Below are positions 48,727 through 49,973 of a DNA stretch of 64,000 nt, piece after piece. The stretch covers positions 3,786,546-3,850,545 of the forward strand of contig NZ_CP032157.1 in NCBI RefSeq assembly GCF_003555545.1, read 5' to 3'. This DNA is from Paraflavitalea soli. Lineage in GTDB: Bacteria; Bacteroidota; Bacteroidia; Chitinophagales; Chitinophagaceae. Position numbers and translations under genes: made by a program. Position 1 is the stretch's first letter. Each line of letters begins with the position of its first letter. The notes below the pieces were generated by a model that saw only the letters and a program-made list of their open reading frames with translations, did no database searches and was not told the DNA's origin.

Positions 48727-49749
48727 ATGCAGATAAGAAAAGAACTCATTTCTGAGATCCAGGTCATTATTGCCAGTGCGAGAGAAAAAGCCATCCGTTC
48801 TGTAGATACTTACCGGGTACTTATGTACTGGCAAATTGGCAAAGTGATCTTTGAGGAAGAACAGCAAGGGAAGGAAAGGGCGGAATACGGCGAGTTTTTG
48901 ATCAAATCACTTTCAGAGCATTTGCAGCCCCAGTTTGGCAGCGGGTTTTCTATTCGCCAATTGGAAATGTGCCGGCAGTTCTATCGTGCTTTCCCAATTA
49001 CGAACGCAGTGCGTTCGCAATTCAGTTGGACACACTATAGGACCTTATTAAGAATTGATAATCAACACAAAAGGGAGTTTTACATTGCTTAAACGGAGAA
49101 AAATAACTGGACAGCCAGGCAACTGGAGCGACAAGTAAATAGCCAGCTTTTCGAACGGCTGCTGGTTAGCAGTAATGTAAAAGAGGTGTTAGCAGTAGCC
49201 AGAGAAGAAAAACTACCATCTGAGGCTAAACAGATCATTAAAGACCCCATGGTATTGGAGTTTTTAGGGTTAAAAAGGGAGACTTCTTACTACGAAAAAG
49301 ACCTGGAAAGCGCCATTATTACACACTTGCAGGATTTCTTACTGGAAATGGGTAACGGCTTTTCTTTTGTAGCACGGCAAAAACGATTACACATTGAAGG
49401 GGATGAGTTTTTTATAGACCTTGTCCTCTACAACAGGTTACTGCAATGCTTTGTAATCATAGAGACCAAAACCACCAAATTGACGCATGAAAGTATTGGC
49501 CAGCTGCAGATGTATGTCAATTACTACGACCGTACGGAGAAACAGTCTTACGAAAACCCTACCATAGGTATTTTATTATGCGCCGATAAAAACGACGCAG
49601 TTGTAAAGTTTACCTTACCGGAAAACAATAAAAACATAATTGCCAGCAAATATCAGTTGTACCTACCCACTGAACAGCAGCTCATTGACGAAGTAAAGGA
49701 GGTTAAAAAGGAAATAGAAAAACTGGATCAGGAAACCAGTAACACATAG
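48727..49749 (+). pseudogene. YhcG/DUF1016-family PD-(D/E)XK nuclease interrupted by one stop codon
   Basis: Codons 1-121 encode the DUF1016 N-terminal domain (SVDTYRVLMYWQIGKVIFEE, then RQLEMCRQFYRAFP, FSWTHYRTLLRI). At codon 122 (49090-49092) there is a TAA, after which the same frame continues as TEKNNWTARQLERQVNSQLF and on through the nuclease domain with EGDEFFIDLVLYNRL and CFVIIETKTTKL, the D...ExK core, to the stop at 49749. Related proteins usually have an acidic residue where the TAA stands, so a single GAA-to-TAA change would explain it. A restart at GTG 49186 could still make the nuclease domain. A 28-base segment of the gene (48997-49024) recurs downstream (see repeats). The family is a putative nuclease of uncertain biological role. 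Confidence 0.85.
48996..49024 (+). repeat. Palindromic element, copy 1 (inside the DUF1016 gene)
   Basis: The core CGAACGCAGTGCGTTCG is a perfect 8-bp dyad around one G, flanked by AATTA and CAATTCA. It encodes NAVRSQF within the conserved DUF1016 domain, apparently without disturbing the alignment I expect for the family (compare SALRTQL-like sequence). Confidence 0.85.
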
Positions 49750-49803
49750 GCTGCATATATCTAATAATCAATTACTTATAAAAAAATCAGCTTCATTACT
49801 TAG

Positions 49804-49831
49804 ATTACGAACGCAGTGCGTTCGCAATTCA
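49804..49831 (+). repeat. Palindromic element, copy 2
   Basis: Identical over all 28 bases to positions 48997-49024 in the gene. Lies 55 bases after the DUF1016 stop codon. Confidence 0.9.
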
Positions 49832-49867
49832 AAACGCTTCAAATTCGATCAGCTTAACGATCTCTCC

Positions 49868-49894
49868 AATTGCGAACGCACTGCGTTCGTAATT
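49868..49894 (-). repeat. Palindromic element, copy 3 (inverted)
   Basis: Exact reverse complement of 48996-49022 over 27 bases. With copy 2 it forms an inverted pair 36 bases apart, as in composite REP (BIME-like) arrangements. Confidence 0.9.
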
Positions 49895-49944
49895 TAAAAA
49901 GCAAGACTTGAAGCCGGCATTTCGCCAAATTATCGGTCATTTTG

Positions 49945-49973
49945 AATTGTAAACGCAGTGCGTGCAAAATTCA
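49945..49973 (+). repeat. Palindromic element, copy 4 (degenerate)
   Basis: Same 29-base length and ends (AATT...AATTCA) and same centre AACGCAGTGCGT as copy 1, with several substitutions that break the outer stem. Confidence 0.75.

Follow-up and report, generated by a model that had tools for sequence, protein, structure and literature searches.

A codon-fixed palindrome in DUF1016/YhcG genes coevolves with the protein segment predicted to read it

Introduction

The repressor LacI has an operator, O3, within its own gene, and in Bacillus subtilis a parS site lies inside spo0J. RAYT proteins are tyrosine (Y1/HUH) transposases, and their REP partners are palindromes dispersed in many copies per genome. 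For ParB, a bond between R173 and guanine 1 of parS has been described, as has recognition of cytosine 6 by R201 in switched variants (PMC7383237). Rickettsia palindromic elements are described as selfish and about 100-150 nt long; they insert into genes, functional RNAs and intergenic regions, and are found in-frame within ORFs (PMC4316617). The DUF1016/YhcG family is predicted to comprise endonucleases related to Holliday-junction resolvases, the N-terminal domain being given as unknown (PMC1189080). In the open-licence literature searched, we found neither a tested function for DUF1016/YhcG nor a report of a palindrome in DUF1016 genes.

Here we describe a DUF1016/YhcG locus from Paraflavitalea soli, located in a window of 64,000 nucleotides (the whole stretch of DNA analysed), and compare it with homologues from other bacteria and from viral contigs.

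Results

The DUF1016/YhcG locus of the window

The window contains a DUF1016/YhcG gene on the forward strand (48727-49749), which is broken by a single in-frame TAA at 49090-49092. The ORF of its 5' part, up to the TAA (48727-49092), harbors the DUF1016_N domain (PF17761, E 4.1e-35, 121.3 bits with a cut-off of 32.8). The frame past the TAA (49093-49749, forward strand) contains the YhcG_C domain, a PD-(D/E)XK nuclease (PF06250, E 3e-59 for the query 49186-49746, 199.8 bits with a cut-off of 32.5).

The intragenic palindrome AATTACGAACGCA-G-TGCGTTCGCAATT (48996-49022, forward strand) encodes an interhelix linker, and its centre at 49009 is base 1 of codon 95. It is an odd palindrome composed of one unpaired centre base and fully complementary 8-base arms, flanked by one mismatch (A/C, arm position 9) and then by AATT at both sides. 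The codons of helix 76-88 (48952-48990, forward strand) precede it, and those of residues 101-109, comprising helix 101-108 plus residue 109 (49027-49053, forward strand), follow it. Across the family, residues 77, 80 and 81 (R, E and M in the window) covary with the outer arm bases 5-9, and residues 102, 104, 105 and 109 (T, Y, R and R) chiefly with the inner arm bases 3-6. Residue numbers are those of a Pedobacter homologue, L018, and coincide with the window protein in the helix 76-88 region.

The recurrence of this site downstream of the gene, noticed in the first-pass annotation, is confirmed. The 28 bases at 48997-49024 are identical to those at 49804-49831 (forward strand), and sequence comparison places the 27 bases of 48996-49022 inverted at 49868-49894 (reverse strand). 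The decayed third copy claimed there is also readable in the sequence at about 49945-49973 (forward strand). The two intact copies, including that at 49804-49831, both retain the A/C asymmetry of the coding site at arm position 9, and therefore are most likely derived from a copy of the gene.

The 17-base core of the site, CGAACGCANTGCGTTCG, matches the window at three places with up to three mismatches, on both strands each (6 matches), versus 0.05 expected from shuffles. Its three exact places in the 8,443,189-bp genome (one contig) are all at this locus, and two mismatches add two further places in the whole genome. The second full-length DUF1016 gene of the same genome possesses another palindrome, GCGGGACA-C-TGTCCCGC, whose sole match in the genome with up to two mismatches is its own gene.

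The palindrome is fixed in position and variable in sequence

DUF1016/YhcG is present in 122 of 296 genomes of the window's phylum, in 41 of 200 genomes of a second phylum and in 10 of 149 genomes of a third; four genomes (G325, G353, G422 and G432) hold 13-14 DUF1016_N matches each. The second and third phyla were reached from one gammaproteobacterial and one Lachnospiraceae genome, and their names are inferred from named loci.

DUF1016 genes picked regardless of palindromes contain other perfect palindromes at the identical codon. For 91 of 119 genes from the window's phylum, the highest-scoring palindrome anywhere in the gene centres on a single HMM column; the sample of 120 stretches behind this count leans to well-matching members because it was selected by best HMM score. 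The best palindromes of these 119 genes score 6-18, versus mostly 5-8 for synonymous-codon shuffles. The alignment of DUF1016 genes at the nucleotide level, which had been proposed in the first-pass annotation, reveals a palindrome at a fixed codon with arm sequences that vary: the site scores at least 8 in 166 of 200 distinct genes and below 8 in the other 34, compared with at least 8 in 88 of 4211 control intervals from the same genes. This set comprises distinct genes with an aligned site, including E. coli and viral loci and excluding the loci of the exact-core scan. In the two other phyla, scores of at least 8 were obtained for 28 of 31 genes (control, 5/541) and 5 of 8 genes (control, 2/113), or 27 of 30 and 4 of 7 after removal of the palindrome-found gene of each centre genome. 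Viral contigs with a DUF1016 gene also have a palindrome at the site.

The symmetry of the site was analysed after dropping even loops and scores below 7, which kept 175 of the 200 genes with 151 distinct sites. The palindrome centre is codon position 1 in 175/175. Among the distinct sites, arm positions 2-8 are self-complementary in 93-98%, and the mutual information between the arms rises from 0.64 bits at position 2 to 1.1-1.6 bits at positions 3-8, with a maximum of 1.57 bits. The 151 sites comprise 101 different 8-nt arms, commonly bordered by AATT on both sides. Moreover, proteins of about 90% identity can have differing yet symmetric arms, as in GTGCACGCA/TGCGTGCAC versus GTGCATACA/TGTATGCAC. 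Four loci (L234, L260, L363 and L403) have a palindrome elsewhere in the DUF1016 gene, at HMM column 56, and in L260 the column-89 site is similar in sequence to the column-56 palindrome.

An inverted repeat within a coding region could also be an mRNA hairpin under selection for translation control or RNA processing. The mismatches between the arms (positions 1-9) argue against such a hairpin: GT/TG occurs 48 times, AC/CA 51 times and other combinations 26 times, so that neither strand displays a G-U bias. In addition, the complementarity reaches the centre base, leaving no room for the loop that a hairpin requires, and the coupling to helix residues described below reads as base recognition. 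We consider this explanation very remote, and it was rejected on the mismatch counts.

Arm bases change together with residues of the flanking helices

The coupling between protein residues and arm bases was tested on a tree built from the C domain only, with 224 genes and 2392 tests. All 224 genes were kept for having an odd palindrome with a score of at least 7 centred on HMM column 89, hence the test does not describe site-less genes. Since 45 of them came from palindrome searches (44 from the exact-core scan and one from the design pattern), the 179 others form a set free of palindrome choice.

In the 224 genes, arm bases change together on the tree with residues that the palindrome does not encode. 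The strongest couplings are formed between residue 77 and base 7 (33 co-changes of 61 and 45, p 2.6e-23) and between residue 102 and base 3 (26 co-changes of 51 and 37, p 1.2e-19), followed by 81-base 6 (p 3.2e-10), 105-base 4 (p 1.8e-8) and 80-base 8 (p 5.6e-8); the best p among 395 other nucleotide positions is 3e-9. The pairs 105-base 5, 81-base 5, 80-base 9 and 104-base 4 are also among the best of the 2392 tests, and residue 130, located outside both helices, is coupled with base 3 (p 6.2e-7). In the 179 unselected genes, only 102-base 3 (p 5.9e-18) and 77-base 7 (p 2.6e-11) clearly exceed the best of 481 control positions (1e-8), and 130-base 3 does so slightly (8.0e-9); 105-base 4 (4.4e-7), 81-base 6 (4.6e-6) and 80-base 9 (6.7e-6) do not exceed it. 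Some close pairs of genes differ as a block over about residues 59-124, so some of the co-changes may be single recombination events. Paralogues within one genome (84 pairs, only one of them more than 50% identical) differ no more than other pairs with a comparable degree of identity.

R77 occurs with G7 in 122 of 124 genes, E80 with C8 in 48 of 49, S102 with A3 in 56 of 67, R/K105 with C4 (G on the opposite strand) in 98 of 107, and R81 with C5 or T5 in 42 of 42; these are pairings of the kind expected from DNA-binding chemistry. The window gene, having R77, E80, T102 and R105 together with G7, C8, G3 and C4, fits the code. The earlier proposal that the DUF1016 protein binds the palindrome is strongly supported in silico by this residue-base coevolution.

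The arm bases also alter the linker residues, so the coupling could be formed at the protein level only, with residues 77 and 102 contacting the linker and the palindrome as a by-product. In line with this, linker residues, which have more states, predict residues 77 and 102 well too. However, with the amino acid fixed, the base still predicts residue 77. For Ser97, R77 is present with 53/53 TCN and 0/6 AGY codons in the 224 genes (10/10 and 0/6 in the 179 genes). For Val92, it accompanies GTG in 43/43, GTC in 2/25 and GTT in 0/4 of the 224-gene set (42/42, 2/25 and 0/4 in the 179 genes), and for Leu92 it is found with 11/11 codons ending in G and 0/17 ending in C (9/9 and 0/17 in the 179 genes). 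This split of synonymous codons indicates that the coupling follows the DNA and not the amino acid. As the arm symmetry would be unexplained as well, we assign a protein-only origin next to negligible likelihood and regard it as refuted unless the synonymous-codon result is wrong.

The code learned on 103 genes of the window's own phylum was used to predict arm bases in 25 genes of the second phylum and in 44 viral genes. Residue 77 predicts base 7 correctly in 24/25 (guess 12) and 37/44 (guess 20), residue 102 predicts base 3 in 18/25 (guess 7) and 32/44 (guess 10), and residue 105 predicts base 4 in 19/25 (guess 1) and 34/44 (guess 12), respectively. The prediction of base 8 from residue 80 falls below guessing across groups (13/25 versus 19; 21/44 viral versus 27). 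Residue 81 brings little gain, or a loss, for bases 5 and 6, and in E. coli its prediction of base 5 scores 0/4 versus a guess of 4.

Protein architecture

AlphaFold2 models, with pLDDT of 81.7 for the whole protein and 91.1 for the N domain, predict that the palindrome-coded residues 90-99 form a linker between helices 76-88 and 101-108. The encoded NAVRSQF had earlier been taken for a conserved stretch of the family; it is instead part of a variable linker joining two conserved helices.

The C domain fold resembles NucS/EndoMS (three matches at E<=0.001). For the N-domain fold, the top 14 Foldseek matches are all ParB/Noc/Spo0J, at weak E values of 0.15-2.7, and a structure search with the N profile gave only weak matches, such as Spo0J 6sdk_A at 0.8. 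HTH_ParB (PF17762) matches 44 of 64 N domains at E<=1, the best at 1.1e-5, and reaches 22.4 bits in L018 (cut-off 22.6), covering residues 96-139 only. The CTP-binding N domain of ParB gave no Pfam match in the window gene halves (E<=0.001) and is absent from the best 25 of the 39 families matched by the 64 N domains. A sequence search at E<=1 found no solved DUF1016 structure. In silico, the coupling of DUF1016 residues to arm bases displays the residue-base specificity of palindrome recognition. These observations suggest that the N domain may resemble ParB and read a parS-like site within the sequence that encodes it.

The PADLOC search classifies L018, E. coli YhcG and a third homologue, L012, as defence candidate PDC-S02. 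Together with the nuclease domain and the presence of the gene in viral contigs, this is consistent with a role in self-recognition, in which the in-gene site would mark the DNA molecule bearing the gene. The nuclease would be tethered or inactive there and would act on untagged DNA or upon gene loss, the DNA of the gene serving as the antidote. The site is inseparable from the gene, and the window genome has no other exact site for either of its full-length genes, both in favour of such a role. However, a single site per chromosome could titrate just a few molecules, and standalone sites exist in some genomes, which makes this mechanism unlikely. The broader proposal, that the coding sequence is a self-address by which the nuclease tells its own-gene DNA from other DNA, or is restrained only while the gene is present, strikes us as rather doubtful. 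If it held, the specificity residues and the address would remain matched, being one DNA stretch, and lineages, as well as alleles within E. coli, would be separate recognition groups.

The core and related sites outside the family gene

The first-pass annotation took absence of the core from other DUF1016 genes as counting against a link to the family. The exact core is indeed rare, being found in 2 of 147 genomes of the window's taxonomic family, where DUF1016_N occurs in 73 of 147. The conclusion drawn from such absence does not hold, however: other DUF1016 genes have a different palindrome at the same codon, so that the absent-core test would have misled.

Searching named genomes for the exact core yielded at least 118 stretches. 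Among the matches listed, 127 core occurrences were examined, including the three of the window and one genome of its family. ORFs matching DUF1016 at E<=1e-3 contain 66 of these 127, a few of these being remnants or having the core elsewhere in the ORF; a further 5 of the 127 listed share a stretch with a DUF1016 ORF, and 56 are located elsewhere. In three Chlorobiaceae loci (L020, L044 and L099), an ORF of 62-63 aa resembles a decayed DUF1016 remnant retaining the palindrome (ITNALRSQF) and adjoins genes read as hsdM and hsdS. An Aeromonadales locus (L114:7733-7881) contains three core copies with 66-bp spacing in a DUF1016-like ORF adjoining another DUF1016 gene.

The design-pattern search of 22 genomes, selected for holding the exact core, gave 40 places, 1-5 per genome. 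Twenty-six are in DUF1016-like ORFs and four within 800 bp of one. Around the other ten, six of them symmetric and four not or poorly so, the sequence retrieved (about 1-1.5 kb or more on each side) contains no DUF1016_N ORF, which indicates that sites away from the gene exist in small numbers. As 30 of the 40 places fall inside DUF1016-like ORFs or at most 800 bp away, the distribution differs from the insertion pattern of Rickettsia palindromic elements, and an unsystematic look found no unrelated host genes among the design places.

Of 94 genes whose surroundings (about 10 kb) were scanned for further copies of their own palindrome, three had such copies, in each case just upstream, and the gene flanks showed no general palindrome enrichment (3 in 54.6 kb). 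A finer scan detected extra sites up to 250 bp downstream of 10/242 genes, seven of the ten being E. coli, and upstream of 13/246 genes, some of these flank sites looking unlike the design; the control, 49/2052 other ORFs, is too high because it includes palindrome-chosen loci. Two sites are located 3' of the gene in Pedobacter L018. At four loci (L226, L306, L216 and L100) a second palindrome lies within about 65 bp before the DUF1016 start, and in the first three its arms are the same or nearly the same as the in-gene arms. In Fibrobacter succinogenes (L060:7329-7433), an intergenic array is composed of three AATT-flanked palindromes with different arms and centres 39 bp apart; the 8-kb stretch around it has no DUF1016 match.

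The first-pass annotation had likened the locus to RAYT-REP pairs, in which case the palindrome would be a mobile element spread by the protein. The downstream copies in the window, the L018 sites after the gene, the Fibrobacter array, the sites 3' of E. coli yhcG with one retained in a yhcG-less strain, and the six symmetric design places lacking a DUF1016_N ORF in their stretch could all be read as such an element. The small number of places per genome (three in the window's own genome, all at the locus), the scarcity of outside copies and the unenriched flanks speak against dispersal. A dispersed repeat was rejected on these grounds, and spreading by the protein is highly improbable.

Tandem units in E. 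coli yhcG

Under a loose criterion, 36 distinct genes have at least two candidate units, some of the second units probably arising by chance. Clear tandem units are often 36 or 39 bp apart and share the core. The number of units in yhcG varies among E. coli strains, K-12 having three at 39-bp spacing and others two or one. The first unit agrees with the protein encoded by the same allele, K77 occurring with C7 in K-12 and R77 with G7 in KN12-1; later units partly mismatch their protein. An extra palindrome is located about 27 bp past yhcG in seven E. coli strains. A yhcG-less ST131 strain retains a 27-bp palindrome at the gltD-nanQ junction (L492:1501-1527). A yhcG match is present in 4417 of 5426 E. 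coli genomes, in 3310 over at least 80% of the gene, and a 31-base palindrome query matches 5082 genomes at E<=10.

E. coli yhcG also occurs as several deletion alleles and as truncations at palindrome units. In strains B, C and OkiPb01713 (L318:2501-3302, L328 and L324), yhcG ends at unit 3, where it is joined to foreign DNA carrying a 101-aa ORF annotated as 'transposase'; this ORF, beside the truncated gene of strain B, has no NCBIfam match. The nuclease may cut its own site, with repair swapping or deleting the specificity segment. The alleles with one, two or three units, the several deletion junctions at palindromes, the truncation of B and C directly after unit 3 and the block-like differences over about residues 59-124 in some close pairs all agree with self-cleavage. 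Palindromes are inherently unstable, though, and cutting its own sole copy would be costly, and we regard self-cleavage as improbable.

Discussion

The site is fixed in position and symmetric, its arms undergo compensatory change, and its bases are coupled to protein residues at the DNA level, all observed in silico. From these features we infer physical binding, the dimer and the role. The DUF1016 protein very probably binds the site inside its own gene, and the safest statement, strongly supported in silico, is that DUF1016 proteins appear to read a palindrome within their own gene. On balance we favour a fuller interpretation, in which a ParB/Noc-like nuclease binds its intragenic palindrome as a symmetric dimer and restrains its own expression.

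In the proposed mechanism, DUF1016/YhcG would combine a nuclease with a ParB/Noc-like DNA-binding domain and would sit as a symmetric dimer on the palindrome inside its own coding sequence. The first-helix residues 77, 80 and 81 would read the outer bases of each half-site, and the second-helix residues 102, 104, 105 and 109 the inner bases. Since the site and the reading residues fit into about 100 bp of the gene, the two are altered and recombined as a unit and remain matched wherever the gene moves. The protein bound to its own gene may act as an intragenic operator or roadblock restraining its expression, and this autoregulation would limit, whatever the host, the amount of a defence-type nuclease that is potentially harmful. 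The extra sites located just before or after some genes, the window gene and E. coli yhcG among them, may be additional operators or leftovers.

Autoregulation is the most likely role. It would account for the scarcity of other sites, the only exact sites for the core in the window genome being at the DUF1016 locus, and for the advantage of having the site move along with the gene. Repressors are rarely positioned this deep in a gene (about 270 bp from its start), which counts against this role.

If true, selection acts on a single DNA stretch in two capacities, as the code of a protein and as the site that this protein binds, and code and site are kept together through changes of specificity. 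Each DUF1016 member gains a predicted DNA target and testable residue-base pairs, and the family forms a natural series of matched protein-site pairs. ParB-type palindrome reading and operators inside genes are already known, as is the nuclease fold (PMC1189080). In the open-licence literature we found no family-wide, codon-fixed site coevolving with its reading module, and the consulted passages of PMC1189080 make no mention of an intragenic palindrome, ParB-like reading or a residue-base code.

Among the known systems, RAYT-REP resembles DUF1016 in having palindromes in or beside the gene of a DNA-acting enzyme, whereas YhcG is a PD-(D/E)XK nuclease (NucS/EndoMS fold) and not a Y1/HUH enzyme, and its sites are undispersed. 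Rickettsia palindromic elements, as described in PMC4316617, are likewise in-frame palindromes in ORFs, but the DUF1016 site is 17-39 bp long, belongs to one gene family, lies at a fixed codon and has a sequence tied to the protein. LacI at O3 is similar to our proposal in that autoregulation would come from a site in the gene of the repressor, and it differs in that its site neither occurs family-wide nor coevolves inside the module that reads it. ParB/Noc with parS/NBS are alike in that a palindrome is bound symmetrically (in DUF1016, as predicted) and specificity is set by a few residues (PMC7383237). Moreover, R173 and R201 of ParB are 28 residues apart, as are residues 77 and 105 of DUF1016; because the Pfam match of L018 spans only residues 96-139, the equivalence of the two pairs is just a suggestion. 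Unlike ParB/Noc, the DUF1016 reading domain is fused to a PD-(D/E)XK nuclease, and in most members the DNA that encodes this domain also contains the site, the two diverging together.
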